DNA from: Jiangella muralis
GTDB lineage: Bacteria > Actinomycetota > Actinomycetes > Jiangellales > Jiangellaceae
Reading direction: 5' to 3'
DNA length: 64,000 nucleotides
Assembly (NCBI RefSeq): GCF_001270745.1
Contig: NZ_LFXL01000038.1
Location: 1 to 64,000, forward strand
In this document: positions 37,291 to 54,189 of the stretch, piece by piece
Numbering within the stretch: the first letter of the stretch is position 1
How the letters are laid out: each line of letters opens with the position of its first letter
Made by a program: the position numbers and the translations under genes
Notes under the pieces: generated by a model
The model's database searches: none
Seen by the model: only the letters and a program-made list of their open reading frames with translations
What the model was told of the DNA's origin: nothing

Positions 37291-38079
37291 ATGACCTACA
37301 TCGAGGTGAACGGCGCCCGCTGCTGGGTCGCGGAGGACGGCGCCGGCCCGCCGCTGGTGCTGCTGCACGGCGGCTTCAGCGACGGAAGCGAGTTCACCGG
37401 CGACCTGGGCGGCTTGGCCGGCCGGTTCCGCGTCGTGCGGCCGGACCGGCGTGGGCACGGCCGCTCCCCCGACGTCGAGGGGCCGCTGTCGCAGCACGTC
37501 ATGGCCGACGACACTGTCGCGCTGCTGGAGCGGCTGGACGGACCGGCCCGGGTCGCCGGGTACAGCGACGGCGCCGTGGTCGCGCTGCTGACCGCGCTGC
37601 GCCGGCCCGACCTCGTCGAGCGGCTGGTGCTGATCAGCGGCGTGTTCGACCCGTCCGGCTGGCTGTTCGCGCCGGAGCCCGGCCCCGACGACGGCGACGA
37701 CCCGCTCGCGGGGATGCCGGCCGAGGTCGTCGACGCCTACGCGGAGGTCTCGCCGGACGGCCGCGACCACTTCCCCGTCGTCGCGGCGAAGATCATGGCG
37801 CTGGCGGCGGAGGACCTCCGCATCACGCCAGACGACCTCGCCCGGCTGGACGTCCGGACCCTCGTCGTCGCGGCCGACGACGACATCATCGCGCCGGAGC
37901 ACACGCTCGCCCTCTACCGCGCCCTCCCGCGCGGCGAGCTGGCCGTCGTCCCCGGCACGTCTCACGACCTGCTGACCGACAAGCCGGCCGCCGTCACCGC
38001 CGTCGTCGCCGACTTCCTCACCCAGGACCCGGTCACGACGTCGCTGCCGATCCGCCGGGCCGCGGTTCAGGCGCGGTAG
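37291..38079 (+). CDS. Alpha/beta hydrolase
   Basis: Alpha/beta-hydrolase fold protein, 262 aa. The oxyanion turn LLHGGFSD, RRGHGRS and the nucleophile elbow GYSDGA with Ser92 are clear, with an acid in VVAADDDIIAP and histidine in PGTSHDL completing the triad. ATG 37291 has no ribosome site in the preceding bases, so translation may be leaderless. It starts 38 nt after the sigma factor stop and its 3' end overlaps the convergent hydrolase by 13 bp. Substrate unknown. Confidence 0.82.
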   Translation: MTYIEVNGARCWVAEDGAGPPLVLLHGGFSDGSEFTGDLGGLAGRFRVVRPDRRGHGRSPDVEGPLSQHVMADDTVALLERLDGPARVAGYSDGAVVALLTALRRPDLVERLVLISGVFDPSGWLFAPEPGPDDGDDPLAGMPAEVVDAYAEVSPDGRDHFPVVAAKIMALAAEDLRITPDDLARLDVRTLVVAADDDIIAPEHTLALYRALPRGELAVVPGTSHDLLTDKPAAVTAVVADFLTQDPVTTSLPIRRAAVQAR

Positions 38080-38873
38080 AACGCGGCCAGCTCGGGCGCC
38101 AGCAGCGCCGGATCGGCGACGTGGCCGGCGACCTCGACGGTGAGCCGCCGGGCGTCCGGCAGGCTCGCCGCGGCGACGTCGGCCGCGGCGCCGAAGAAGT
38201 CGACCGGCAGCCCGGCCGAGTGCGGGTCGACGGTCGCGCCGGTGGACAGCAGCACCGGTTGCCCGACGACCGCCAGCCGGTCCGCCGGCGGCGGGCCGTC
38301 GCCGAGGCAGGCGGCGTCGTAGCGCAGCGTCGGGGCCAGTTCGCGCAGTGCCGGCCAGACCGGCGCCGCCTCGGCCGCCGCGATCTGCTCCTCCGGCGAC
38401 CCGGCCAGCCGCATGAACAGCCGCAACGCCTCGTCGCGGTCGCCGCGGTCCAGGGCGGCCCCGAGGCCGTCGACGTACGCGCGCCAGGCCCCGACCAGCG
38501 GCTCGCCGACCAGGTACGGAACCTCGTGGACGGCGATCCGCTGCGCCGGCAGCCCGGCGGCCGCCGCCTCCAGCGCCAGCGCGCCGCCCGACGACGCGCC
38601 GAACAGGTGCGCCCGCCCGCCGGCCGCGTCGATCACCGCGGCGAGGTCCTCGACCTCCCGTTCGACGGCGTACGGCGCGGTGTCGCCGCTGTCGCCCCGC
38701 CCGCGGCGCCGGTAGTTGACGACGGCGAACCCCGAGGCGGCGAGATGCTCGCCCAGCGGCACGTTCTCGCTGCCGTCGTCCAGCCCGCCGCCGACGAGTA
38801 CCACCGTCGGCCCGTCGTCGCTCATCCGGTCGTAGCCGATCGCCGTACCGTCGGCCGAGCTCACGTGCGGCAT
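38067..38873 (-). CDS. Alpha/beta hydrolase
   Basis: Alpha/beta hydrolase, 268 aa, with nucleophile Ser94 in FGASSGGALALEAA and the RRRGRGDSGD loop. It resembles the protein at 59219-60019 in the segment around the nucleophile (RRGRGxSGD ... IDxxGGRAxL), so the two are paralogues of one hydrolase subgroup often found beside ArsR/AHSA1 genes. The ATG at 38873 is 13 nt upstream of, and divergent to nothing else on this strand; the GH36 gene ends at 38887 on the same strand. Substrate unknown. Confidence 0.82.
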   Translation of the reverse strand: MPHVSSADGTAIGYDRMSDDGPTVVLVGGGLDDGSENVPLGEHLAASGFAVVNYRRRGRGDSGDTAPYAVEREVEDLAAVIDAAGGRAHLFGASSGGALALEAAAAGLPAQRIAVHEVPYLVGEPLVGAWRAYVDGLGAALDRGDRDEALRLFMRLAGSPEEQIAAAEAAPVWPALRELAPTLRYDAACLGDGPPPADRLAVVGQPVLLSTGATVDPHSAGLPVDFFGAAADVAAASLPDARRLTVEVAGHVADPALLAPELAAFYRA

Positions 38874-38886
38874 GGGTCGAGAGTAC

Positions 38887-40209
38887 TCAGCGGGTCAGCA
38901 ACCGCCGAGTGGTCTCGAGGCCCCAGTCGTCCAGGCCGGCCAGCCGGTCGCTGCTGACGACGGCGCCGCCCACCGACTCGACGTGCGCCGCCCACGCCTC
39001 GCGGTTCTCGACCTTGGGGCCGACGATGAGGCAGTCGGGGTCGTTGGCGAAGAACACGCCGTTCATGAACTGCCGCCCATGCGCACTGAGCAGGGCCGCC
39101 TCCTGGCTGGGCGAGCACATGTCACCGTCGTCGGGAGCGAAGGTGTGGCCGGTGTCGGCGCTGACCCGGATGGAGTCGACGAGGCCGACGGACGGCAGGA
39201 CGGGCGCCCCGCAGCCCAGGATGTGAGCGGACGGACCCACCGCGGACCGGATCAGACGCAACCCGTCCCGGTACGCCGTCACCGGATCGGCCCCCGAGTG
39301 CCGTCGGCCCGGGATCGCCCCCGCCGCGATGAAGTCGATCTTGAAGTAGTCGATCCCCCACGACGCGAACGTCGAGAACACCGTCTGCATCCACTCCGCC
39401 GCGCCGGGGTGCGACAGGTCGAGCGAGTACAGGTCCTGGTTCCAGTTGTTCCCGGCGTGCAGCGCGCCGCCGTGCGGGTGCCGCAGCAGCCAGTCGGGGT
39501 GCTCGGCGGCCAGCCGGGACCGCGCGCCGGCGAAGAACGGGGCCAGCCAGATGCCGGCCCGGCGGCCCTCGCCGCGGATCTTCTCCACCAGGCCGCGCAG
39601 GTCGGCGAAGGTGTCGGACGGAGTCAGCCAGTCGCCGATCTCGGCGGAGTAGCCGTCGTCGATCTGGACGACGTCGACGGGGAGATCGAGGCTGCGCATC
39701 GCGTCCAGGTTCTCGACGATGTCCTCGCGGCGCACGCCGCCCCAGTACTCGTACCAGGAGCACCAGGCGGTCGGCGCGGGCCGGGCCGCCGGCAGCCCCG
39801 CAGCCGCAACGGCCGACAGCGCCCACGACCGCAGCGCGGCCTGCACGTCCGACCCGGGCAGGACGCTGACGGCCACCGGCCCGTCCGCGCCCACCACGAC
39901 CGACGACCCCGAGACGACGGCCTGCAGCCGCACCCCCGTCGTGAACGGGTCCTCGGCCGCCACGACGTGCACGGATCCGGCGCCGTCGGCGACCGCGAGC
40001 ACGCCCTCGCCGAAGTAGCCGTCAGGACCAGGGTGCGAGGACTGCCGGTAGTTGAGCATCCGGTTCCGCTCCGACGTGGGCCGGTGCGGCCGCACGCCCA
40101 GCGCGTACGTGGTGGTCGGGCTGAACGACTGCCAGCCGTGCTCGAAGATCTCGGCGCCGTCGGAGACAGCAACCTCGTGGACGACGTCGAAACCGGGCGA
40201 GAGAGTCAT
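38887..40209 (-). CDS. Alpha-galactosidase, GH36/melibiase type
   Basis: Cytoplasmic clan D glycosidase, 440 aa, shorter than typical ~700-aa GH36 enzymes because the N-terminal beta domain is reduced. The catalytic barrel has AWCSWYEYWGGV, DVVQIDDGYS, GIWLAPFFA and the nucleophile region YFKIDFI, with SADTGH as the acid/base segment. It would release alpha-linked galactose from imported oligosaccharides. It is the last gene of the ROK-GH97-ABC operon, 27 nt after the permease stop, ATG at 40209. Confidence 0.85.
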   Translation of the reverse strand: MTLSPGFDVVHEVAVSDGAEIFEHGWQSFSPTTTYALGVRPHRPTSERNRMLNYRQSSHPGPDGYFGEGVLAVADGAGSVHVVAAEDPFTTGVRLQAVVSGSSVVVGADGPVAVSVLPGSDVQAALRSWALSAVAAAGLPAARPAPTAWCSWYEYWGGVRREDIVENLDAMRSLDLPVDVVQIDDGYSAEIGDWLTPSDTFADLRGLVEKIRGEGRRAGIWLAPFFAGARSRLAAEHPDWLLRHPHGGALHAGNNWNQDLYSLDLSHPGAAEWMQTVFSTFASWGIDYFKIDFIAAGAIPGRRHSGADPVTAYRDGLRLIRSAVGPSAHILGCGAPVLPSVGLVDSIRVSADTGHTFAPDDGDMCSPSQEAALLSAHGRQFMNGVFFANDPDCLIVGPKVENREAWAAHVESVGGAVVSSDRLAGLDDWGLETTRRLLTR

Positions 40210-40236: not shown

Positions 40237-41064
40237 TCAGGCCTTGATTCCGGACATCGCGATGCCGCGGATGAACTGTTTCTGCAGCAGGACGAAGACC
40301 AGCACCATCGGCAGGATCGTCAGCAGTGAGCCCGCCATCAGGACGGGGTAGTCGGTGCCCTGGGCGCCCTGCAGCGTGGCCAGCCCGACCGGCAGCGTCA
40401 TCCGGTCCGGGACGGTGTTGACGATCAGCGGCCACAGCAGGTCGTTCCAGGAGAACAGGGACGTGAGGATGGTCAGCGCGGCCAGCGCCGGCCGGCACAG
40501 CGGCAGGATGATCCGCAGGTAGATCTGGAGCGGGTTGGCGCCGTCCATGCGCGCCGCCTCGTCCAGCTCCGTCGGCAGCGTCCGCATGAACTGGTAGAGG
40601 ACGAACACGCCGAACGCGCTGAACATGCCGGGCAGCGCCAGCGCCTGGACGGAGTTCAGCCAGCCCATCGTCCGGATCACCTCGTACTGCGGGATCACGA
40701 ACAGCTGCGGCGGCACCATCAGCACGACGAGGAACCCGGCCAGCAGCGGCCCGCGGAACCGGAACCGCAGCCGGGCGAACACGTACGCCGCCAGCGACGC
40801 CACCAGCAGCTGCCCGGCGACGCGCAGCACCAGCGCCAGGAAACTGTTCACCGCCATCGACCCGACCGGGACGATGTCGAAGAAGGCCGAGTAGTTCTCC
40901 CACCGCGGCGACGCCGGCAGCACCGTCAGCGGGATTCGGGTCGACTCCCCCAGCGTCTTCAGCGACGTGAGGAACTGCCAGAGGAACGGCGACACCATGA
41001 GCAGCGCGCCGGCCATCAGGACGACGTGCGTCACCAGGTGACGGGATCGCAGCCGCTCACGCAT
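40237..41064 (-). CDS. ABC sugar transporter permease (MalG-like)
   Basis: Inner-membrane permease, 275 aa, six spans. The EAA loop reads ELDEAARMDGANPLQIYLRI at about residues 183-202, and the C-terminus ends QKQFIRGIAMSGIKA as in most MalG-type sugar permeases. ATG 41064 overlaps the end of the upstream permease by 8 nt. Together they import an oligosaccharide, predicted to contain alpha-galactose from the enzymes around them. No ATPase gene is present. Confidence 0.9.
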   Translation of the reverse strand: MRERLRSRHLVTHVVLMAGALLMVSPFLWQFLTSLKTLGESTRIPLTVLPASPRWENYSAFFDIVPVGSMAVNSFLALVLRVAGQLLVASLAAYVFARLRFRFRGPLLAGFLVVLMVPPQLFVIPQYEVIRTMGWLNSVQALALPGMFSAFGVFVLYQFMRTLPTELDEAARMDGANPLQIYLRIILPLCRPALAALTILTSLFSWNDLLWPLIVNTVPDRMTLPVGLATLQGAQGTDYPVLMAGSLLTILPMVLVFVLLQKQFIRGIAMSGIKA

Positions 41065-42001
41065 AGGTCACCCACCGTCGCTGGAGGCGGAACTGCACGG
41101 CCGTCACCGCGAGCGTCACCACCAGGGTGACCAGCGCGATCACCGCGCCGAGCGGGCGGTCGTTGCGCACGAACGCCTCCTCGTAGAATAGGTAGACGAT
41201 CGTCTTGGAGTCGGCCAGCGCCGGGTTGGTGCGGCCGAGCATGATGAACAGCAGGTCGAACATCTGCAGCGACCCGATCACCGACAGCACCGACACCAGG
41301 AAGATCGACGGCGTCAGCAGCGGCACGGTGACGGAGAAGAACCGCCGGATCGGCCCGGCGCCGTCCAGCATCGCGGCCTCCTCCAGGGTCTGCGGGACGG
41401 ACTCCAGCCCGGCCGCCAGGATGATGAGGTTGGTGCCGAGCGCCATCCAGATCCCGACGACGGCGACGGCGTACAGCGCGGTGTCGGGGTCGGCCACCCA
41501 CGCGCGAGTCGGCCCGCCGACGGTGTCGAGCACCTCGTTGAGCAGCCCGAAGTCGCCGTTGTAGATGTAGCGCCACACCATCGCGACGGCCACCGGCATG
41601 GTCACGACGGGCACGAAATACAGCGTCCGGTAGAACGACCGGCCGCGTAGCCCGCGCTGGTGCAGCAGGGCGGCGATCACCATCGCGATCGGCACGCCGA
41701 GCAGCACGATCGCCGCGTACACCAGCGTGTTGAGCAGCGCCCGCCAGATGTCGTCGCCGTTCTCGAACAGCCGCTGCCAGTTGTCCAGCCCGGTGATGGT
41801 GTAGCCGGAGAACGCGGTCCCCTCGGAGAAGCTGAGCAGGACGGTGCGCAGCAGCGGCCACAGGTAGAAGACCACCAGCCCGCCGAACGGCACCGCGAGC
41901 AGGATCACCGCCCACGCGTTGTCCGGATGCCGGTTCGGCCGGCGGCGGGGCTCGGCGGCGCCGGGTGGTGCCGCCGGGCCCTTCGTCCGCATGAGGGTCA
42001 T
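41057..42001 (-). CDS. ABC sugar transporter permease (MalF-like)
   Basis: Inner-membrane permease, 314 aa, six spans after a proline-rich cytoplasmic leader. EAA loop: TLEEAAMLDGAGPIRRFFSV. The start is placed at ATG 42001, 2 nt after the binding-protein stop and preceded by GAGG; the frame remains open upstream only through the overlapping binding-protein gene. ATG 41992 is a second possibility. Partner of the 40237-41064 permease. Confidence 0.88.
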   Translation of the reverse strand: MTLMRTKGPAAPPGAAEPRRRPNRHPDNAWAVILLAVPFGGLVVFYLWPLLRTVLLSFSEGTAFSGYTITGLDNWQRLFENGDDIWRALLNTLVYAAIVLLGVPIAMVIAALLHQRGLRGRSFYRTLYFVPVVTMPVAVAMVWRYIYNGDFGLLNEVLDTVGGPTRAWVADPDTALYAVAVVGIWMALGTNLIILAAGLESVPQTLEEAAMLDGAGPIRRFFSVTVPLLTPSIFLVSVLSVIGSLQMFDLLFIMLGRTNPALADSKTIVYLFYEEAFVRNDRPLGAVIALVTLVVTLAVTAVQFRLQRRWVTYA

Positions 42002-42003
42002 CC

Positions 42004-43299
42004 TCAGCCCTGGTTCTCCTGCGCCAGCGCCTCGTTCATCGCGCCGGCCAGCCCGGCCGCGGCATCCTCGACGCTCTGCTCGCCGGTCCACGCCGGGGTG
42101 AGGAACTCGCCCTCGCGGCTGGCCCACGCGTCGGTGTTGCGCGACACCGGCAGGACGACGCCGTTCTCGGCCTGGTCGAGGAACGCCTGCAGGTTGAACT
42201 GCGGGAACGCGTCGACGAACGCCTGCTGGGTGCCCTCGTAGGAGCCGATGACGGTGCCGGTCTCGCTGGAGATCTGCGAGGCCTCCTCACCGCTGAGGAA
42301 GACGGCCAGCCGGGCGGCCTCCTCGGGGTGCTCGGTCGAGGCGAGCGCCACGTTGCCGATGCCGTTGATGATGGTCGCCTCCTGGGCGCCGGCCGGCAGC
42401 TCGGTGACGTCGAGGTTCGCGGACGCGTACTCGTCGTTCGCGAACCGGATCGCGTAGAACGAGCCGGTGGTCAGCATGGCCAGCCGGCCGGACATGAACT
42501 GGGCGACCGACTCGGTGTCGGCGAACGACTCCAGCGTGGGCGACACGTGGTGCACGTTGATCATGTCCGTCCAGAACTTGATGCCCTCGATCGCCTCGGG
42601 GCTGTCGAAGCCGGACGTGGTGCCGTCCTCGGAGATGACCTCGCCGCCGGCCTGGTAGATCGTGTTGTAGTACGTGGCCTGCGGGTCCATCGGCGCGCCG
42701 ATGCCGTAGACGCTGCCGTCGGGCTTGGTCAGGGCCTGCGCGTTGGCGATGACGTCGTCCCAGGTCCAGTCCGGCGTCGGGTAGGCCACGCCGGCCTCGT
42801 CGAACAGCGCCTTGTTGTACCAGAGCCCGATGGTGTCGAAGTCCTTGGGCAGCGCGTACGTGGTGCCGTCGTCGACGAACAGGTCGACCAACTGCTCCGG
42901 GTACTTGTCGATGTCGAGGCCGGACTCCTCGAACGCGTCGTCCAGCGGCAGCAGCACCCCGCCGTCGACGTACTGGCCGATCTTCGCGCCGAGCATCCAG
43001 GCGACGTCCGGGCCGGTGCCGCCGGCGGTCGACGTCTGCAGCGTGCTCCAGTAGTCGGTCCACGGGATGATCTGGATCTCGACCGAGACGCCCGGGTTCT
43101 CCTCCTCGAACACGTCGAGGATCTGCCGGATGGCCGGCTCCTGGTCGGGCGAGAACGTCGCGAAGGTCAGGTTGACCTCCTCGCCGTCGCCGCCGTCATC
43201 GCCGGAGCCGCCGGCCGAGGCGCCGTTGTCGCCGCACGCGGCCAGCGTCAGGACGGCCGCGGTGGCCGCCAGGGCCAGCAAGGTCTTCGTCGACTTCAT
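42004..43299 (-). CDS. ABC transporter solute-binding lipoprotein (sugar type)
   Basis: Carbohydrate-binding lipoprotein, 431 aa, COG1653 family. Lipobox LAAC (Cys22) follows a standard signal peptide, then a Gly/Asp-rich linker and LTFATFSPDQEP. Aromatic residues (WTDYW, TPDWTWDDV, YYNTIYQAGG) line the typical sugar cleft. Start ATG 43299 has GAGAGG about 10 nt upstream. Genes on both sides encode alpha-galactosidase-type enzymes, so an alpha-galactoside such as melibiose, raffinose or a galactomannan fragment is the inferred ligand. Confidence 0.9.
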   Translation of the reverse strand: MKSTKTLLALAATAAVLTLAACGDNGASAGGSGDDGGDGEEVNLTFATFSPDQEPAIRQILDVFEEENPGVSVEIQIIPWTDYWSTLQTSTAGGTGPDVAWMLGAKIGQYVDGGVLLPLDDAFEESGLDIDKYPEQLVDLFVDDGTTYALPKDFDTIGLWYNKALFDEAGVAYPTPDWTWDDVIANAQALTKPDGSVYGIGAPMDPQATYYNTIYQAGGEVISEDGTTSGFDSPEAIEGIKFWTDMINVHHVSPTLESFADTESVAQFMSGRLAMLTTGSFYAIRFANDEYASANLDVTELPAGAQEATIINGIGNVALASTEHPEEAARLAVFLSGEEASQISSETGTVIGSYEGTQQAFVDAFPQFNLQAFLDQAENGVVLPVSRNTDAWASREGEFLTPAWTGEQSVEDAAAGLAGAMNEALAQENQG

Positions 43300-43327: not shown

Positions 43328-45805
43328 TCAGGTTCGGGGCCGCACGTGCGGATCGATCCAGTCCACGTGCGCGGGCTCGGCACCGTCGGGCGACCGGACG
43401 ACCAGTCGCAGCCGGGTGACGCCGGCGAGGTCCACGTCGAGCTCCTGCGCGGGATCGCCCGCGGTGAGCTCGACCGTGGTGAGGACGCGGCCGTCGCCGA
43501 CGACGGAGCAGGTGGCCGTCGTGCCGGCGGGGCTCTCGTCATCGACGCCGACGGACGCGGTGAGCCGCGCCGCCGTGCCGTCGAGCACCCAGGTGACGTC
43601 CGACGGGGCGCAGACGCCGAGTCCCTTGGGGTGGTGCGCGCCGGCCACGGACATCGGCCGGCCGTCGGCGGGGTTGCCCTCGCCGTTGGACATGTCCCGC
43701 TCGACCGGGCCGCTGCCGTTGGCGGCGGCGACGGGGGTGAGCGCGACCAGCGACGCGGGGTCCGCGCCGAGGGGGCTGACGACGCGCACGTGCGCGAGGG
43801 TGGAGCGGCGGGCGCCGAGCGGGTCGCCGGCGTGCACGGCGAGGACGGCGACGTGGCCGGGCTCGGTGTCCGCGGGGACGGTGACCGACCACACGCCCGG
43901 GCGGACCGTCCTGGCGTGGTCCCAGCCGGGCGGCACGACGAGGTGCGGCTCGGCGCCGCTGACCACGGCGGCGATCTCGACGCTCTCGCCGGGGACGCCG
44001 CGCACGATCGGGTCGGCGACGGCGACCGTCGGGCGCGGCTCGGGCGCCGGGCGGGTGTGGCCGGACGGCGCCAGCAGCACCAGCGCGCCGCCGTTGGGCC
44101 GCAGCGTGACCTCGACCGTGTCTGCGCCGGTGACCGTGCGGGTCGCCTGCGTGAGCCGGTCGCCGTCGTCGTCGGTGACGATCGTGGCGGCGTGGTCGCC
44201 GTCGAGACCGAGCGTCGCGAGGTCGACGGTGAGCTGCTTCGGCTCGGGCAGCGCCGACAGCGCGCCGACGCTCCACTCGTCGCCCGAGCGCCGGGCCAGC
44301 ACGACGTACTCCCCCGGCCGCCCGGCCAGCAGCCGGGTCTCGTCCCAGTGCGCCCGGATCCGCTCGATCGCCGCCTCCGCGATGGGCCGCTTCGCGTACT
44401 CGTCGACGTCGTCGGCGTAGTTCAGCAGCCCCGACTCCAGCACGACGGCCAGCGCCAGCTCGTGCGCCTCGGTGGTCAGCCGCGCGGCAGCCGAGAACGC
44501 CACCGGGGTGTAGTCGGCCGACCCGACGACGTTGCGGGTGAACGGGACGATGGTGTTGTGCTCGGGGGTCAGCGGCTCGCTGTAGAAGACGTAATACTCG
44601 GCGCCGCGGACCGCCTCGTAGCTCATGACGTGTGGATACGTGCGGGCCCAGCCGCGCGGGATGACCGAGCCGTGGAAGTTGATCATCAGGCCGACGCGGG
44701 CGCACTCGGCGATGACCTCGTCGTACCAGCGGTACCGCTCCTGCGCCTCGGACTCCATGAAGTCGACCTTGACGCCGACGACGCCCCACGACGCCCACTC
44801 GGCCAGCTTCGTCCGCTGCTCCGGCGTCGCCAGGTGGTCCCAGACCACCCAGACGAACACGCCGACGCCGCGCTCGCTGGCCGCGGCCGCCAGCTCGGGC
44901 ATCCAGACACCGTCCCAGCCGCAGTCGACCAGCACGTACTCCCAGCCGCGCTCGGCGGCGTAGTCGAGCATGCGCAGCTGCTTGGACAGCTGGGCGCCGC
45001 TGTAGAAGTCCGACCACCACGACCAGGCGGCCCGGCCCGGCCGGGCCCACACCGGCACCTCGGCGGCGGCCGGTGCGAGGTCGTCGACCAGGTGCGACGC
45101 GACGACGGTCGCGAGGTCGCCCAGGATCACCACCCGCCACGGCGTCGCCACGCTGTCGCCGTCGAGCACCACGTCGTTCGCCAGCGTGACGGTGAGCGCG
45201 CCGCCGCCCGCGTACCGCGCCAGCGAGCCGCCGTACCGGCCGTCCAGGTCCGCCTCGGTGACCAGCGCGAAGGTGTCGTCGGCCAGTTCGGCGAGGAACG
45301 GGAAGCCGTAGTCGCCGGGCTCCAGGGCGTCCAGCGTGCTGCTGAACCGGGTGGTCTCATACCAGGGCGTGTACGTGAGCGGCCACACCGGCGCCGTCGC
45401 CGGGAGGTGCAGGGCGACGTCGCCGCCGGTCACCGTCGCGCCGTCGAGGCCGTGCAGCACGAACCGCAGCGCGACGCCGTCCGCCCCGGCCCGCAGGACC
45501 ACCGAGACCTCGCCGCCGCCCGCGCAGGCGAACCGGACCGACCGTTCACGGTGGTCGACGGTGTGCCGGCCGACCCGCTTGCCGACGACCAGCTCGTACT
45601 CCTCGGCCACGTCGCGGGCGGAGTCGGACACGTACGTGACGCCGGACAGCAGGTCGCGGCCGTCGCCCGTGCGCAGGTGCAGCGGCGCGGGCGGGGTGAC
45701 CTGCACGCCGCCGGACAGCACCGTCCAGGTGAGCCGGCCGCGGAACCAGGTGACGGCGACGGTGTTGGCGCCGTGGGACACGGACCAGGTGGAGGACTCA
45801 GACAC
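43328..45805 (-). CDS. Cytoplasmic GH97 glycosidase with NEW3-like and NPCBM domains
   Basis: GH97 enzyme, 825 aa, no signal peptide. The N-terminal beta-supersandwich is followed by the catalytic barrel with GVVGVKVDFM, whose Asp matches the nucleophile of retaining GH97 alpha-galactosidases, and SYEAVRGAEYYV for the acid/base. After the GH97 C-terminal sandwich come a NEW3-like segment (GVPGESVEIAAVVSG) and a C-terminal NPCBM domain (about 700-825; HPKGLGVCAPSDVTWVLDG). Start GTG 45805 overlaps the ROK gene by 8 nt and has GGAG upstream. A carbohydrate-binding module on a protein with no export signal is unusual. Confidence 0.85.
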   Translation of the reverse strand: MSESSTWSVSHGANTVAVTWFRGRLTWTVLSGGVQVTPPAPLHLRTGDGRDLLSGVTYVSDSARDVAEEYELVVGKRVGRHTVDHRERSVRFACAGGGEVSVVLRAGADGVALRFVLHGLDGATVTGGDVALHLPATAPVWPLTYTPWYETTRFSSTLDALEPGDYGFPFLAELADDTFALVTEADLDGRYGGSLARYAGGGALTVTLANDVVLDGDSVATPWRVVILGDLATVVASHLVDDLAPAAAEVPVWARPGRAAWSWWSDFYSGAQLSKQLRMLDYAAERGWEYVLVDCGWDGVWMPELAAAASERGVGVFVWVVWDHLATPEQRTKLAEWASWGVVGVKVDFMESEAQERYRWYDEVIAECARVGLMINFHGSVIPRGWARTYPHVMSYEAVRGAEYYVFYSEPLTPEHNTIVPFTRNVVGSADYTPVAFSAAARLTTEAHELALAVVLESGLLNYADDVDEYAKRPIAEAAIERIRAHWDETRLLAGRPGEYVVLARRSGDEWSVGALSALPEPKQLTVDLATLGLDGDHAATIVTDDDGDRLTQATRTVTGADTVEVTLRPNGGALVLLAPSGHTRPAPEPRPTVAVADPIVRGVPGESVEIAAVVSGAEPHLVVPPGWDHARTVRPGVWSVTVPADTEPGHVAVLAVHAGDPLGARRSTLAHVRVVSPLGADPASLVALTPVAAANGSGPVERDMSNGEGNPADGRPMSVAGAHHPKGLGVCAPSDVTWVLDGTAARLTASVGVDDESPAGTTATCSVVGDGRVLTTVELTAGDPAQELDVDLAGVTRLRLVVRSPDGAEPAHVDWIDPHVRPRT

Positions 45806-47033
45806 GACGGACTCCGGGACGGCGGCGCACGTCGGGGGCGACGCGCTGGCGGGACGGGAAGACGAGTTCCTGGATGGCGACCGCGGCGGCGCCGCGGGCC
45901 CATTCCTCGAACGGCAGGTCGCGCACGTGGATGGGCACCTGATGGGCGGCGCCGAACGCCTGCTCGGCGAACGCCTCGCGGATGGCGCTCTCGAACAGGT
46001 CGTAGCTGGACACGCCCTCACCGGCGACGATGACGCGTTCCGGGCCCAGCAGGTTGGCCACCGAGGCCAGCGCCAGCCCGATCAGCCGGCCGGCCCGGGC
46101 GAAGATCGCCCGCACCCGCTCGTCGCCGGACCGGGCCAGTTCGACCGCGGTCTCGATGGTGAGGTCGTCGCGGCCGGTGGCGGCGCGGCAGCTGTCCAGC
46201 AGCGCCTTCGTCGACGCCTCGGCCTCGACGCAGCCGTGCGCGCCGCAGTGGCACTGCACCGCCGGGTCGCCGAGCGGCAGGTGCCCGATCTCGCCCGCGA
46301 CGCTGTGGGCGCCGCGGACCAGGCCGCCGTCGACGACCAGCGCGCAGCCGATGCCGGTGCCGATGGTGACGACGGCGAAGTTGGTGATGCCGCGGCCGAG
46401 CCCGAACCACTGCTCGGCGACGGTGAGCGCCTTGACGTCGTTCTCGACGACGACGGGGGCGCCGACGGCCCGCGACACGGCCGCGCCGAGGTCGACGTCG
46501 CGCCAGCCGAGGAACGGCGAGTAGCGGACGTAGCCGGTGTCGTGGTCGATGTCGCCGGACAGGCTGAGCCCGAGGTCGTGCGGCGCGACCACGAACCCGG
46601 CGGCCTCGGCCCGCTCGACCAGTTCGCGGTAGAACGCGGCGATGGCCGCCACCGCGGCGTCGACCGTGGGGTCGGCCAGCGGGCGGCGTTCGGACACCCG
46701 CGGCGCGCCGGCGAGGTCACAGACCATGCCGATCAGCTCGTCGCGCCGGACGATGATGCCGAACGAGCCGGTCTGCCGCGCGTGCACCCGCAGCGGGCTG
46801 CTCGGCCGGCCCATCCGGGCCTCGTCGCCGTTGTTCGGCTGCGGCTGGTCCGGCGCGTACTCGAGGTAGCCCTCGTCGATGAGCAGCTTCGCCACCCGGG
46901 TGACGGCCGCGGACGACAGCCCGGTCTCACGGGCGATGTCGACGCGGGCGATGGGCCCTGCGGTCAACGCGGAGAGGAAGACGGCGCCCTCGGCCGGGGT
47001 TCCCTCGACCGGGCCGCCTCGCTGGATCGGCAC
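45798..47033 (-). CDS. ROK family transcriptional regulator
   Basis: ROK repressor, 411 aa, with an N-terminal winged helix (ARVDIARETGLSSAAVTRVAKLLIDEGYL) and a sugar-kinase-like domain. The ROK zinc motif is intact as CHCGAHGCVE, preceded by GEIGHLPLG, and the ATP-fold glycines TIGTGIG are present. It heads the minus-strand alpha-galactoside operon and probably represses its own promoter in the 47041-47091 region. GTG 47033 lies 7 nt from the -10 box, pointing to a leaderless transcript. Confidence 0.9.
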   Translation of the reverse strand: MPIQRGGPVEGTPAEGAVFLSALTAGPIARVDIARETGLSSAAVTRVAKLLIDEGYLEYAPDQPQPNNGDEARMGRPSSPLRVHARQTGSFGIIVRRDELIGMVCDLAGAPRVSERRPLADPTVDAAVAAIAAFYRELVERAEAAGFVVAPHDLGLSLSGDIDHDTGYVRYSPFLGWRDVDLGAAVSRAVGAPVVVENDVKALTVAEQWFGLGRGITNFAVVTIGTGIGCALVVDGGLVRGAHSVAGEIGHLPLGDPAVQCHCGAHGCVEAEASTKALLDSCRAATGRDDLTIETAVELARSGDERVRAIFARAGRLIGLALASVANLLGPERVIVAGEGVSSYDLFESAIREAFAEQAFGAAHQVPIHVRDLPFEEWARGAAAVAIQELVFPSRQRVAPDVRRRPGVRRV

Positions 47034-47040
47034 AGGACCG

Positions 47041-47091
47041 ACGCTACGAAGACTTAATAAACTTTGTCAAGTATGTAACTCGTGCCATACT
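47041..47091. promoter_or_regulatory. Divergent leaderless promoters sharing a ROK-type operator
   Basis: An AT-rich imperfect palindrome, ACTTAATAAA-c-TTTGTCAAGT (7 of 10 pairs), spans 47052-47072. Minus strand: -35 TTGACA (47070-47065), 18-bp spacer, -10 TAGCGT (47046-47041), then 7 nt to the ROK GTG. Plus strand: -35 TTGTCA (47064-47069), 16-bp spacer, -10 CATACT (47086-47091), then 7 nt to the AraC GTG 47099. Both -35 boxes overlap the palindrome, so one bound repressor could shut both genes. Confidence 0.6.
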
Positions 47092-47098
47092 CGGAACC

Positions 47099-47962
47099 GT
47101 GCCAGCCCGCGACGGTCTTCGCCCGCAGCGGCTCTACGCCGTCCCGCGGCGGCAGGTCACGGCGGCGCTGACGGCGCCGGTCACGCGGCGTCTCGTGGTC
47201 ACCGACGCCGGCTACTCCCCCGCGTCGGCGCTCTTCGAGGCGGCCCGGCCCGAGGGGTCGCGGCACACCGTCCTCGCGGTGTGCGCGAGCGGCAGCGGCT
47301 GGGCCGACGTCGCCGGCCGGCGGCACCGCATCGGCGCCGGGTCCGCGCTGGTCGTCCCGGTTGCGACGGCGCACGCGTACGGCGGGTCGGCGTCGTCGCC
47401 CTGGACGGTGTGGTGGTGCCACCTGCGCGGCAGCGACGTGCCGGAGCTGGTCGAGGCGCTGGGCCCGCCAGTCGTGCCGATCCGGCACCTGGACCGCGCC
47501 GTCGCCCTGGCCGACGAGATCGTCGGGCGGCTCGCCCGCGACGACGACGGCGCACCGGCGCGGCTGGTCGGGGTCGCCGGGGCGGCGTGGAAGCTGCTCA
47601 CCCAGCTGATCGCGGACCGGTCCGCGGCGCCGCCCGCCGACGACGACCCGCTGTCCCGGGCGATGGACTACCTGGCCTCCCGGCTGGACGGGACGGTTCG
47701 GGTGCCGGAGCTGGCCGCGCTGGTCGGCGTGTCGCCGTCACACCTGACGACGCTGTTCCGCCGGGCCACCGGCGGCGGGGTGCACGCCTACCAGACGACG
47801 CTGCGGATGACCCGGGCCCGGCTGCTGCTGACGACGACGGCCGCGACGGTCAGCGAGATCGCCCGCGACGTCGGCTACGGGGACCCGTTCCACTTCTCCC
47901 GCCAGTTCCGCCAGCTGCACGCGATGAGCCCCACCGAGTTCCGCTCCACGGCCGCCCCCTGA
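47099..47962 (+). CDS. AraC family transcriptional regulator
   Basis: AraC-type regulator, 287 aa. The N-terminal half is a cupin-like ligand domain (ALFEAARPEGSRHTVLAVCASGSGWADV ... VVPVATAHAYGG), the C-terminal ~100 residues hold the two helix-turn-helix units: VPELAALVGVSPSHLTTLFRRATG and VSEIARDVGYGDPFHFSRQFRQLHAMSPTEFR-type signature. Divergent from the ROK-led alpha-galactoside operon. It probably activates that operon or the secreted GH97 gene on sensing a sugar. GTG 47099 has no ribosome site and appears leaderless. Confidence 0.9.
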   Translation: MPARDGLRPQRLYAVPRRQVTAALTAPVTRRLVVTDAGYSPASALFEAARPEGSRHTVLAVCASGSGWADVAGRRHRIGAGSALVVPVATAHAYGGSASSPWTVWWCHLRGSDVPELVEALGPPVVPIRHLDRAVALADEIVGRLARDDDGAPARLVGVAGAAWKLLTQLIADRSAAPPADDDPLSRAMDYLASRLDGTVRVPELAALVGVSPSHLTTLFRRATGGGVHAYQTTLRMTRARLLLTTTAATVSEIARDVGYGDPFHFSRQFRQLHAMSPTEFRSTAAP

Positions 47963-48438: not shown

Positions 48439-51093
48439 TCAGTTGGTGACGGTGATCCGGTCGAGGTCGGGCGCCGGGCCGGACGTACCCGCGACGGTGA
48501 TCGTGTTCGCCGCGCCGCCGGTCAGGCCCAGCCCGAGCGTGACCGGCGCGGTCGCCGTCGCCCCGCCGGTCGACGGGAACGAGACCGTGACCGGCGTCCC
48601 GCCGTTGACGCTGACCTGCGCCGTCGCGTCGGCGGTCGCGGCGTAGTCGAGGCGGACGGTGTGGTTGCCGGCCGCGCCGGCCGTCACCCCGTTGAACGTC
48701 ACGGAACCGCCGCCGGACAGCCCCGTCACCACGGACCCGCCCGAGCACGGCCCGCACGCCGCCACCGTCGCGCCACCGGCCAGCGTGTTGCCGGCCGCCT
48801 CCGCCTCGGTGTGCCGCGACACGATCAGCGCGTCGATGTCCGGACCGAACGCCGACGGGTTGGCGAAGCGGATCGTGTTCGCGCCGGCGTTCAGCGGCAC
48901 GTCGAGGGTCCACTTGTTGACGAACTCCCAGCCGCCGGAGTCCTTCAGCGCCTCCGTGCCGACGACCGACCCGTTGACCTCGATCTGGATCGACCGCGGG
49001 TCGCCGGAGGTGTAGGTGAAGGTCAGCTCGTGCGTGCCGGCGGCCGGCGCCATGACGTTGGTGAACTGCACCGCGCCGCCCTGGCCGAGGTAGCCGACCT
49101 TCGCGCCGCCGGAGCAGCCCTTGCACCCGTCGACCAGCGCTCCGCCGGACAGCGTGTTGCCGGGCGCCTCCGCCTCGTACCGGACGTCGCCGCTGCCGAT
49201 CTGCGCCAGCGGGGTCTTGGAGAGGTGCACGGCCGCGCCGCCGGTCGCGATCATCGGCAGCGACAGCGTCGACGCGCTGGTCACGGTCTGCGTCGTCACG
49301 GAGGACACCCGCCCGGCGCCGTCGTCGGCGAAGATCGTGGCGGTGTAGGTGCCCGAGCCGAGGAAGTCCAGCGGCACGGAGGCCGTCCGGGCCGGCGAGG
49401 TCATCGCGCCGACGAACCAGTCGTCGCCGCTGCGCCGGGCCATCGTCACGTGGTCGCCCGGGAAGCCCTCGACGACGCGGGTCTCGTCCCACACCGTCGG
49501 GACGGCGCGCATGAGGTGCCGGCCCGGCCACTGCTCGTACGCGGCCGCGGAGTCGGAGTAGTTGACCATGCCGGACGTGAACACGATCGACTGCGCCAGC
49601 GTGTGCGCCTGGGTGAGGATCGACCCGTTCAGCGAGATCATCGTCGGCGTGTAGTCCATGCCACCGATCGGGTTGCGGACGAACGGGAAGGTCGCGTCCA
49701 GCCGGGCCGTCGTCGGTGGCGGGTACAGGTAGTGCTCGGTGCCCGCGACCGCCTCGGACGTCACGACCCACGGCCAGGTGCGGTTCTCGCCGCCGGGCTT
49801 GGTGCTGCCGTGGAAGTTCAGCATCAGCTCGTGCTCGCCCGCGGCGTCGCCGATCGACTGGTACCAGCCCATGACGTTCTGCGAGTCGTTGAGGAAGAAG
49901 TCCACCTTCAGCCCGACGACGCCGTACTCCTTGTGCTCGGCGGCCAGCGCGTCGGCCTGGGCGGGTGTGGCGAACGGCTCGGCCGTCACCCACGCGAAGA
50001 TGTCCACGTTGCGCTGCGCGGCGTACTGCGAGATGGCCGGCAGGTCGACGTCGGGGTCGTAGCAGCAGTCGACGGTGACGTACTCGAAGCCCATCGACGC
50101 GGCGAAGTCGACCATCTGCTCCTGCTTGTCCAGGTCGGCCGCGCTGTCGCCGTCGCTGAACCACGACCACGCCGCCCGGCCCGGCTTCACCCAGTCCGCG
50201 TCCGCCGTCGCCGGCGGGTTCAGGTGCTGGACGAGGTCGGAGTTGACCAGCACGTTCAGGTCCGACGCGACGATCGCGGCCCGCCACGGCGTCTGGAACG
50301 GATACGTGCTGGCGATCGGGAACGCCTGGTCCGGCGTCCGCTCGACGTTCAGCAGGCCGTCGTTGCCCTGACTGCCCTTCAGCAGCGACGGCGCGAAGCT
50401 GGCCCCGGCGTTGTAGACGTTCGCCTCGGAGATGACGGTGAAGTAGGCGTTGTCGTCGATCGACGCCAGTAGCGGCATCGTCAGCTCGGTGCCGTCGTTC
50501 AGGCCCGCCGCGTTGCGGTAGAGGTAGTCCTGCTCGTAGTTGCCGTTCCACACCGCGGCCCAGCCGCCGGTCGGCGCCGGCAGCCGGAACCCGCTCGTCT
50601 CGTCGGTGATGCTGACGGCGCCGCTGCCGCCCGGCAGCACGTACCGGTAGGCGACGCCGTCGTCGTAGGCGCGCACCACCAGCCGCATGGTCTGGCCGCC
50701 CTTGGTGTAGCTGAGCACCAGCTCGTTCGCGTGGTCGCGGTACGACGGCTTGGTGCCGGCCGGCAGCGTGTACGTCTGGTCGATGGTGGTGCGCGTCTGC
50801 GACGCATAGGTGAGGCCGGTGGTGAAGTCGACGGCGCTGGTGGCGATGCCCAGCGGCGACTCCTCGAAGATCTGGGTGGTGCCGGCGGTGACCTCGTAGG
50901 TCAGCGCGCCGGAGGGCTGCTCGTGGACGGCGAAGGTGATCTCGCCGTCCGGGGACGTGACGGTGTGCGTGGTCAGCGCCTGCGCCGGGACCACGCCGAT
51001 GTCGGTCGCCGTCAGCGAGGCGACGACGGACGCGGTGACGGCGACGGTGGCGAGGGCGAGGGTCGATCGGCGGCGTTTCGAGCCTGCGAACAC
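48439..51093 (-). CDS. Secreted GH97 glycosidase with two C-terminal CBM-like modules
   Basis: Exported glycosidase, 884 aa. A signal peptide (KRRR then ALATVAVTASVVASL, cleavage near VPAQA) precedes the GH97 N-domain and barrel. GVVGLKVDFF supplies the nucleophile Asp of the retaining alpha-galactosidase branch, and TSEAVAGTEHYLYP the acid/base region. After the GH97 C-domain come two related CBM35/CBM6-like modules: YEAEAPGNTLSGGA... and AEAEAAGNTLAGGA..., each with a C-x2-C pair (DGCKGC, AACGPC). GTG 51093 has GAGGAGG upstream. It would trim an alpha-galactoside-decorated polymer outside the cell for import by the neighbouring ABC system. Confidence 0.88.
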   Translation of the reverse strand: MFAGSKRRRSTLALATVAVTASVVASLTATDIGVVPAQALTTHTVTSPDGEITFAVHEQPSGALTYEVTAGTTQIFEESPLGIATSAVDFTTGLTYASQTRTTIDQTYTLPAGTKPSYRDHANELVLSYTKGGQTMRLVVRAYDDGVAYRYVLPGGSGAVSITDETSGFRLPAPTGGWAAVWNGNYEQDYLYRNAAGLNDGTELTMPLLASIDDNAYFTVISEANVYNAGASFAPSLLKGSQGNDGLLNVERTPDQAFPIASTYPFQTPWRAAIVASDLNVLVNSDLVQHLNPPATADADWVKPGRAAWSWFSDGDSAADLDKQEQMVDFAASMGFEYVTVDCCYDPDVDLPAISQYAAQRNVDIFAWVTAEPFATPAQADALAAEHKEYGVVGLKVDFFLNDSQNVMGWYQSIGDAAGEHELMLNFHGSTKPGGENRTWPWVVTSEAVAGTEHYLYPPPTTARLDATFPFVRNPIGGMDYTPTMISLNGSILTQAHTLAQSIVFTSGMVNYSDSAAAYEQWPGRHLMRAVPTVWDETRVVEGFPGDHVTMARRSGDDWFVGAMTSPARTASVPLDFLGSGTYTATIFADDGAGRVSSVTTQTVTSASTLSLPMIATGGAAVHLSKTPLAQIGSGDVRYEAEAPGNTLSGGALVDGCKGCSGGAKVGYLGQGGAVQFTNVMAPAAGTHELTFTYTSGDPRSIQIEVNGSVVGTEALKDSGGWEFVNKWTLDVPLNAGANTIRFANPSAFGPDIDALIVSRHTEAEAAGNTLAGGATVAACGPCSGGSVVTGLSGGGSVTFNGVTAGAAGNHTVRLDYAATADATAQVSVNGGTPVTVSFPSTGGATATAPVTLGLGLTGGAANTITVAGTSGPAPDLDRITVTN

Positions 51094-51291
51094 GGATCCT
51101 CCTCGAGGTGCTGCGGTTTCCCGTCGCGTGACGGTAGCCGTGACTCCGTGTTGCGCGGAATGACGAAAACGCGCCCGGACCTGGAGAAAGCGATGATCTT
51201 GGTCTAGCCGCCGACAACGCCGGAAACGGGGACGGAGCGGACGGTGAACACCCGGCTCCGGGCTGGATTCCGGTCCGGCCGTCCGGCAAGA

Positions 51292-51332: not shown

Positions 51333-52439
51333 GTGAGTCTGACCGGCGCGGTCCCCGAACCCCACGTCGAGGACCCCTTCGACGACGATCTCGGGCGGGC
51401 GGCGCAGCGGCGTCGCACGGTGCTCTGGATGGGCGGCCTGTCCGCCGGCCTGCTGGTCACCGTGGTGCTCGCGGTCGGCATCGGTGCCGTCGGCATCGAC
51501 CCCGGCACCGTCGCGCGCATCGTCGGGCACCACACGCTGGGCAGCCCGGCCGACGTCACGTGGACGCAGGCCGAGGACTCCATCGTCTGGCAGGTACGGC
51601 TCCCCCGCGTGCTCCTCGGCGTCGTCGTCGGCGCGGCGCTGGCCGTGTGCGGCGTCGCGCTGCAGGCGATGGTGCGCAACCTGCTGGCCGACCCGTACCT
51701 GCTCGGCGTCACGTCCGGCGCGTCGACCGGCGCCGCGGCGGCGATCCTGTTCGGGCTCGGCGCCGGGTTCGGTGAGAACGCGCTGCCGGCGAGCGCGTTC
51801 CTCGGCGCGCTGGCCGCGTCGGCGGCGGTGTTCGTGGTGGCGCGGGCGGGCGGGCGGATCACGTCGCTGCGGCTGCTGATGGCCGGCGTCGCGGTCGGGT
51901 ACGCGCTGTACGCCGCGACCAGCTTCCTGATCTTCGCCGCCGACTCCGCCGAGGGCGCCCGGTCGGTGCTGTTCTGGCTGCTCGGCTCGCTCGGCCTGGC
52001 CCGTTGGGGCACGCCGCTGGCGATCGTCGTCGTGGTGGTGGCGCTGACGCTGGCGGCGCTGCTGCTGTGGAGCCGGCGGCTGGACGCGCTGGCCATCGGC
52101 GACGAGACCGCGCACACGCTGGGCGTGCCGCCGACCCGGTTCCGGGTGCAGTTGCTCGTCGTCGTGTCGCTGTGCATCGGCGCCGTGGTGGCGGCGTCCG
52201 GCGGCATCGGCTTCGTCGGCCTGGTCATCCCGCACGTCGCCCGCCGGTTCGTCGGGGCGGCGCACGGCCGCGTCGTCCCGGTGGCGGCGCTGATCGGCGC
52301 GATCTTCCTGGTCTGGGCCGACGTCGCCGCGCGGACGCTGCTGGAGCCGCGCGAGCTGCCGATCGGCATCATCACCGCGCTCGTCGGCGCACCGTTCCTG
52401 CTGATCCTGGTCCGGCGGTTCCACTCCGCCGGCGTCTGA
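51333..52439 (+). CDS. FecCD-type ABC transporter permease (siderophore/cobalamin class)
   Basis: Permease of the BtuC/FecCD family, 368 aa, about ten spans after an acidic N-terminal tail. The LPRVLLGVVVGAALAVCGVALQAMVRNLLADPYLLGVTSGAS region and GGIGFVGLVIPHVARRF contain the family hallmarks, including the loop that contacts the ATPase. GTG 51333 has GGAGG at 51324-51328. It begins a plus-strand operon with a binding protein and an ATPase, so the importer is complete, unlike the sugar importers in the window. Confidence 0.92.
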   Translation: MSLTGAVPEPHVEDPFDDDLGRAAQRRRTVLWMGGLSAGLLVTVVLAVGIGAVGIDPGTVARIVGHHTLGSPADVTWTQAEDSIVWQVRLPRVLLGVVVGAALAVCGVALQAMVRNLLADPYLLGVTSGASTGAAAAILFGLGAGFGENALPASAFLGALAASAAVFVVARAGGRITSLRLLMAGVAVGYALYAATSFLIFAADSAEGARSVLFWLLGSLGLARWGTPLAIVVVVVALTLAALLLWSRRLDALAIGDETAHTLGVPPTRFRVQLLVVVSLCIGAVVAASGGIGFVGLVIPHVARRFVGAAHGRVVPVAALIGAIFLVWADVAARTLLEPRELPIGIITALVGAPFLLILVRRFHSAGV

Positions 52440-52456
52440 CCCCTCCGAGGAGACCC

Positions 52457-53406
52457 ATGCGCTACCTGCCGCCCGTCGCCGCGCTCGTCCTGCTGGCCAC
52501 CGCGGCCTGCGGCACGGACGACGAGCCCGCCGACGCGGCCGTCACCGTCGACAACTGCGGCGTGGACGTGACGTTCGACGCGCCGCCGGAGCGGGTGGTG
52601 CTGCTGGAGAGCGCGCCGGTGACGATCATGCACGAGCTCGGCGTGCTGGACGCCGCGGTGCTGCGGGCCGGCGCGTTCCCCGAGGCGTACTACGACGACG
52701 AGACGAACGCCGCCATCGCGGCCGTCGAGTCGCTCGGCGACGACGTCGACACCAGCGGCCACCTGCAGATCTCGCAGGAGGTCATCATCGCCCAGCAGCC
52801 GGAGCTGGTGCTGGGGCTGCCCGACGGCATCACCCGCGAAGGGCTGTCCGGCGTCGGCATCAACGCGCTGATCCAGCCGGTGTACTGCCCCGACGGCGTC
52901 GACGCGACGACGTTCGACGACGTGTACGAGCAGGTCGAGACGTACGGCCGGGTCTTCGATCGCGCCGACGAGGCCGACGCGCTGGTCGGCGAGCTGAAGG
53001 ACCGGGTCGCCGCGGTCGAGGCGGCCGCCGGGGGCGCACCGGAGCGCACCGCCGCCGTCCTCTTCCCCACCGTCGGCGGCGGCGCCGGCTACGCCTACGG
53101 CAACCGCAGCATGGCGCACCCGCAGCTGGCGGCGGCCGGCCTCAGCAACGTCTTCGGCGACGTCGACGAGCGGGTGTTCGAGGTGACGCTGGAGCAGATC
53201 ATCGCCGCCGACCCGGACGTCCTGGTGCTGCTGCACGTCGACGGCGACCCGGCCGCCGTCGAGGACGCGGTCGTGAACCTGCCCGGCGCACAGGACCTGA
53301 CGGCGGTCCGGAACGACGACCTCCTCGTGCAGCTGTTCAACTTCACCGAGCCGCCCACGCCGCTGTCGATCGACGGGCTGGAGCGGATCGCCGAGCGGTT
53401 CCTCCC

Positions 53407-53410
<4 letters not shown>
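52457..53410 (+). CDS. ABC transporter substrate-binding lipoprotein (metal chelate type)
   Basis: Class III binding protein (PF01497-like), 317 aa, lipobox TAAC (Cys18). The first strand VTVDNCGVDVTFDAPPERVVLLESAPVTIMHELGVLD and the segment IIAQQPELVLG are typical of siderophore and cobalamin binders, and an Asn/Ser-rich cleft is suggested by YGNRSMAHPQLAAAGLSNVFGD. ATG 52457 follows CGAGGAG. Ferric siderophore, haem, cobalamin or another metallophore are all possible; no biosynthesis genes are present. Confidence 0.88.

Positions 53411-54185
<775 letters not shown>

Positions 54186-54189
<4 letters not shown>

Follow-up and report, generated by a model that had tools for sequence, protein, structure and literature searches.

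Gene content of the locus

The window analysed here, a stretch of 64,000 nucleotides from the genome of Jiangella muralis, contains a run of seven genes in which no gap exceeds 28 bp and which is headed by a gene for a ROK-family transcriptional regulator and lies back to back with a gene for an AraC-family regulator (araC):

38067-38873, minus strand, alpha/beta hydrolase, final gene of the run
38887-40209, minus strand, alpha-galactosidase related to 1zy9 and 5m0x (8.7e-63 to 1zy9)
40237-41064, minus strand, ABC transporter permease 2 (PF00528)
41057-42001, minus strand, ABC transporter permease 1 (PF00528)
42004-43299, minus strand, sugar ABC transporter binding protein (PF01547)
43328-45805, minus strand, GH97 glycosidase carrying an NPCBM domain, start deduced from the frame
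45798-47033, minus strand, ROK-family transcriptional regulator (PF00480), GTG start, leading gene of the operon
47099-47962, plus strand, AraC-family regulator, GTG start (PF12833, 1.2e-21; PF02311, 1.1e-8)

The ROK protein matched PF00480 with an E-value of 1.2e-48 and a score of 166.6 bits (cut-off 22.9). Its putative N-terminal HTH scored 26.7 bits against MarR_2 (residues 20-63), just under the cut-off of 27, and is backed by the long alignment of the protein with the ROK regulators 1z05, 1z6r and 3bp8, which begins at residue 15-19. ROK/Mlc regulators are among its nearest solved relatives, and with its probable HTH ahead of the ROK domain it resembles the E. coli ROK repressors Mlc and NagC, solved chains of this type being among its matches. 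The scores of 144.2 and 142 bits were, however, far below the NCBIfam equivalog cut-offs of 530 and 650 for Mlc and NagC, respectively, and an assignment to either was rejected. The whole 7.27-Mb genome (G000) contained 22 ROK-domain matches.

The alpha-galactosidase and sugar ABC transporter genes are co-directional with the ROK gene, and the first six genes, from the ROK gene to the alpha-galactosidase gene, were found together in all 10 other Jiangella genomes fetched. With an alpha-galactosidase, an ABC transporter, a GH97 glycosidase and the same neighbours throughout, the description of the run as an alpha-galactoside operon in the first-pass annotation of this DNA holds. The GH97 enzyme best matched 5xfm, named alpha-glucosidase, followed by the alpha-galactosidases 3a24 and 5e1q, and its sugar may therefore be of either kind. 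The hydrolase gene was found in 8 of the 10 other stretches, in 5 of the 8 more than 700 bp from the alpha-galactosidase gene, and its membership in the operon is therefore doubtful.

Overlapping divergent promoters in a 65-bp gap

The GTG start codons of the ROK gene and araC are divided by a gap of 65 bp (47034-47098), at which the G+C content drops to 0.55 over 100 bp, as compared with about 0.7-0.8 in the surroundings. The gap contains the following features:

47070-47065, minus strand, -35 box TTGACA of the ROK operon
47046-47041, minus strand, -10 box TAGCGT of the ROK operon, 7 nt from the GTG at 47033-47031
47064-47069, plus strand, -35 box TTGTCA of araC, overlapping the ROK -35 box on the opposite strand
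47086-47091, plus strand, -10 box CATACT of araC, TGN-extended, 7 nt from the GTG at 47099-47101
47052-47072, no strand assigned, 21-bp imperfect palindrome ACTTAATAAACTTTGTCAAGT, 8 of 10 arm pairs, centre at 47062
47050-47079, minus strand, conserved AT-rich 30-bp block GTTACATACTTGACAAAGTTTATTAAGTCT, proposed ROK operator, spanning both -35 boxes

The promoters read TTGACA-18-TAGCGT-7-GTG on the ROK side and TTGTCA-16-CATACT-7-GTG on the araC side, and the two -35 hexamers have 5 bp in common and together span 7 bp (47064-47070) on opposite strands. The layout thus agrees with what had been annotated at first pass: 65 bp between the two start codons, -10 boxes 7 nt from both GTG codons and both -35 boxes inside one 21-bp imperfect palindrome. 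Among 5000 dinucleotide shuffles of the gap, the promoter score at 6-7 nt from the start was reached in 0.08% on the ROK side and 0.14% on the araC side, and in none of the 5000 were both reached jointly.

No usual ribosome site was seen upstream of the ROK or araC start. In 6 of the 8 araC-bearing Jiangella genomes, the araC GTG is preceded at 2 nt by GGAA or GGAG, which is nearer to the start than ribosome sites usually are. The promoter geometry predicts leaderless mRNAs for both genes, strongly so for the ROK gene. Leaderless genes in actinobacteria are described as having TANNNT some 12 bp ahead of the start codon (PMC3160421, PMC3898074); they make up 19.2% of genes on average in Actinobacteria (PMC3160421) and 26% of the genes with a primary start site in Mycobacterium tuberculosis (PMC3898074), where GTG is reported to be equally frequent in leaderless and leadered genes (PMC3160421, PMC3898074). 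The Jiangella pair would not differ from the leaderless genes described in these sources; it would be the common case, present on two divergent genes.

The TANNNT of the ROK promoter is retained in all 11 Jiangella genomes with a ROK ortholog, whereas CATACT on the araC side matches TANNNT at A2 and T6 only, not at T1. Among the 8 genomes with araC, this box was CATACT in six, CATAGT in one and CCTACT in one (L031), none with T1, and the key A of the -10 box is missing in L031. These deviations are what would be expected if the araC box were fortuitous, so that araC starts elsewhere or with a leader and the leaderless promoter exists on the ROK side alone. We consider this unlikely, since the spacing of 6-7 nt to the GTG and the TGN extension are retained in 8 of 8 genomes despite a change of 1 nt in length in two of them, the placement was rarely matched in the shuffled gaps, and just 65 bp separate the two starts.

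A conserved block over both -35 boxes

To the -35 boxes belongs a longer conserved element. ROK orthologs were identified in 11 of the 12 Jiangella genomes and araC in 8 of the 12. In the alignment of the 11 Jiangella gaps, 29 of the 30 columns of the block were invariant (10 orthologs); the corresponding figures were 110 of 231 for fourfold columns within these ROK genes and 8 of 16 for the columns adjoining the start. Because its alignment is offset, the eleventh ortholog, L034, was omitted from the column count; its block is retained and on visual inspection differs at about 3 positions. Three genomes (L026, L029 and L034) contain the ROK gene with no adjacent araC, and in these the block is retained while the -10 box of araC is lost. 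The block is thus conserved independently of araC, indicating selection that does not depend on this gene. Beside the ROK gene in L029, which has no araC, is a 35-bp araC remnant (L029:2779-2813, 91% match), consistent with loss by deletion.

The 21-bp palindrome within the block was exact in 9 of the 11 Jiangella orthologs, with 1 change in L029 and 2 in L034. A palindrome of equal quality occurred somewhere in the gap in 16% of the 5000 shuffles, and the palindrome alone was dropped as evidence. The best dyad axis, counted from the first T of TTGAC, was at +8 in Jiangella versus +2 in the distant orthologs described below, and no common axis was found. For this reason we do not claim the 21-bp palindrome as the operator dyad, and the earlier proposal that the dyad is itself the operator is not upheld, its symmetry being at chance level and its axis not conserved. 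A second imperfect inverted repeat, AGTATG-N10-CATACT (47070-47091, 8 of 11 pairs), overlaps the -10 box of araC.

With up to 3 mismatches allowed, the 21-mer had no second copy in the 7.27-Mb genome (control 0), and a looser 17-bp pattern matched this site alone in the same genome, while the reversed control gave 3 matches. Loci of other ROK genes in the genome and the family yielded no match to the 21-mer above 14/21. In a public genome collection, a relaxed 21-bp pattern matched 15 stretches, of which 5 were named Jiangella and 10 were from unrelated taxa and are taken as chance matches; the motif is present in records of J. anatolica, J. aurantiaca, J. ureilytica, J. asiatica and J. rhizosphaerae.

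Promoter geometry and block in distant ROK orthologs

We searched 393 genomes of the class, plus 24 and 250 genomes of two families around the matches, under strict E-value limits. This yielded 41 further ROK loci with 45-60% identity from four families (f17, n=29; f19, n=9; f47, n=2; f36, n=1). No close ROK orthologs were found elsewhere in the family and order of Jiangella (22 genomes), where the best identity was 38-39%.

With start codons picked among the in-frame starts within 75 nt, 36 of the 41 distant orthologs had TANNNT 6-7 nt ahead of the start (f17, 28/29; f19, 8/9; f47, 0/2; f36, 0/1). Over the range of 0-25 nt, no other spacing was seen in more than 4 of the 41. A TTGACA-like box at 16-19 nt accompanied the TANNNT at 6-7 nt in 27 of the 41. 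The five failures were L078, L080, L088, L090 and L113; in L078 and L090, the closest loci outside Jiangella, the position 6 nt from the start is occupied by GACGGT and CATGGT. By contrast, none of 30 ROK paralogs from the same genome and family had TANNNT at 6-7 nt; these were drawn from 40 loci after alignments beginning after residue 30 had been dropped, and at least two genes are counted twice (L010 is L051, and L012 and L018 are the same gene). This distribution supports the geometry behind the earlier claim that the ROK gene is leaderless. In a different group of ROK genes of this family (L010, L039, L042, L045, L050, L052 and L053), the start is closely preceded by a 14-bp palindrome, GACTAACTTTAGTC, that is the same in all, and GACAAAAGTTTTTGTC-like palindromes occur further up in several members.

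A block centred on CTTGAC could be anchored in 26 of the 41 distant orthologs, all in f17 and f47, where anchoring demanded CTTGAC by construction. In f19 the leaderless geometry is retained but the CTTGAC block is not, most loci having ATTGAC in a different AT-rich flank. Judged by this distribution, the element is a feature of the ROK lineage, which fits the earlier suggestion of one element over both -35 boxes that is tied to the ROK protein.

Two other origins of the block were weighed. One is that it represents a strong promoter core, used in both directions, together with an AT-rich element upstream, the ROK protein acting elsewhere or not at this site. The TTGAC box and the AT-rich flank are promoter features in themselves, the dyad symmetry is weak with an axis that shifts between clades, and the genome provided no further copy of the site, all of which this explanation would accommodate. 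Yet a promoter alone would not need the near invariance that is seen in the spacer and in the flank preceding the -35 box, the ROK paralogs lack TANNNT at the ROK spacing (0/30), and the element accompanies the ROK group in two other families, in one of them under or beside adjacent alpha-galactosidase promoters. A mere promoter core is thus rather improbable. The other is that the block is a site for the AraC protein itself, for autoregulation or for activation of the divergent operon, as might be suspected from the position of araC next to the block and from the AGTATG-N10-CATACT repeat over its -10 box. This is weakened by the conservation of the block in the absence of araC, which extends from 3 of 3 ROK-bearing Jiangella genomes of this kind to the 26 anchored distant orthologs, and no AraC match was present in the 41 distant loci, which extend up to 1.5 kb on each side of the match; we regard such a role as very improbable.

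Exchange of the divergent partner

In 20 of the 41 distant loci (19 in f17 and 1 in f19; L093 and L102 included), the gene divergent from the ROK gene encodes a GH36 alpha-galactosidase according to Pfam. Of these 20 gaps, 18, all from f17, contain a -35-like box for the GH36 gene that starts 8 bp after the first base of GTCAAG and has 3-4 of 6 matches; the likely -10 box (TACGCT, TACACT or TAGGCT) is 31-32 bp from GTCAAG. The -35-like box is TTGATT or TTGAAT in 12 of the gaps and a weaker TTTAAT or TTTATT in 6, and the two exceptions, L104 and L082, have no GTCAAG. The GH36 starts are located further from the -10 box, so these genes do not look leaderless. After the ROK gene there is a GH97 gene in L078 and L090, a GH27-type melibiase gene in L084, a GH95-like gene in L091 and a binding protein gene in L102.

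The divergent partner is on this comparison exchangeable, being araC in Jiangella and a GH36 alpha-galactosidase in another family. Across these loci the block is associated with the ROK group and with alpha-galactosidases, and one block between two divergent promoters is a recurring design. By analogy, the f17 arrangement provides the strongest indirect support for a double switch in Jiangella, although in Jiangella another part of the block serves the araC promoter.

A predicted double switch under one ROK operator

Overall, a pair of divergent promoters under one predicted ROK operator is probably the best explanation of the locus, and the prediction of such an operator, with the ROK gene leaderless, is well supported by the comparisons. 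The ROK protein, made from its own operon, would bind the block at 47050-47079 and hinder the polymerase at both -35 boxes, so that its own alpha-galactoside operon would be shut off and araC inevitably with it. An alpha-galactoside or its galactose product would be the inducer that releases the protein. Because the -35 boxes overlap on opposite strands, RNA polymerases should not be able to use both promoters at once, and the promoters would compete even without the repressor. We strongly infer autoregulation of the ROK gene; binding to the block, repression of araC, the inducer and the competition are predictions from the arrangement of the sites. A double switch of this kind, with one repressor, would be a fairly ordinary bacterial switch, a reading that is well supported.

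Related systems have been described. RokB of Streptomyces coelicolor is a ROK regulator, likewise actinobacterial, that binds its own bidirectional promoter, with two sites in the interval that separates rokB from a divergently oriented gene, one of them over the rokB start codon; these two sites lack a perfect inverted repeat, as is the case here (PMC4856308). According to the same account, however, the RokB sites are two separate ones and the regulator is concerned with amino-acid metabolism and transport, whereas in Jiangella there is one block over both -35 boxes and the genes point to alpha-galactosides. RafR of Bifidobacterium breve, which is listed as a ROK protein (PMC4856308), is by its description comparable, being an actinobacterial regulator that acts locally on raffinose use (PMC4746261). 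In the E. coli acrA/acrR pair, as it is described, the polymerases compete at divergent promoters and AcrR shuts both, but there the -10 is shared rather than the -35, and both Jiangella genes are leaderless-looking (PMC12825309).

Genes of the alpha-galactosidase type adjoin the ROK gene of this group in Jiangella and in loci sampled from three other families, while the leaderless geometry and the operator block are each present in Jiangella and two other families. An alpha-galactoside role can be predicted for the group because neighbours, geometry and block are conserved across families. The individual parts are known, and it is their combination and its conservation that look new; among the titles listed in a text search of the literature, which covered few subscription journals, none concerned such a combination. 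The locus offers a compact test case, with a single predicted repressor site that would control two apparently leaderless genes whose -35 boxes overlap.

Association of araC with a second GH97 gene

Beyond araC, two further features are relevant to its role:

48439-51093, minus strand, second GH97 with CBM6/35-like domains, signal-like N terminus by reading, co-occurring with araC
51159-51191, minus strand, conserved 33-bp promoter element of the second GH97 gene, core in 8 of 8

In the first-pass annotation araC was attributed to the alpha-galactoside operon as its AraC regulator. This attribution is not supported, in that araC is missing from 4 of the 12 Jiangella genomes, 3 of which have retained the ROK operon, and tracks with the second GH97 gene, the two being jointly present in 8 genomes and jointly absent in 4 (12/12 in step). 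The end of the second GH97 gene is located 0.5 kb beyond araC in the window; the two genes are 5.4 kb apart in G002 and on separate contigs in G011, where the araC contig ends early. The co-occurrence is suggestive only, as near neighbours may simply be lost together.

No second match to the element at 51159-51191 was found in the genome, and it is a possible target of the AraC protein. Direct repeats are typical of AraC-type sites. One, with a 21-bp period, was found before the second GH97 gene and was not significant, being equalled in 42% of shuffles. From the gene distribution, araC probably does not regulate the ROK operon, and the AraC protein would more likely serve the second GH97 gene. 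As a tentative extension, which we find more doubtful than probable, the locus might form a two-tier switch, in which release by the inducer starts the operon and araC in competition and the AraC protein then activates the second GH97 gene through the element at 51159-51191; the ROK-operator module would be old and its divergent slot filled differently by family. Further along, the region is followed by a set of genes for an ABC transporter of the iron-siderophore type (51339-54189, names from translations), which is also present in 5 of the 10 other Jiangella stretches.
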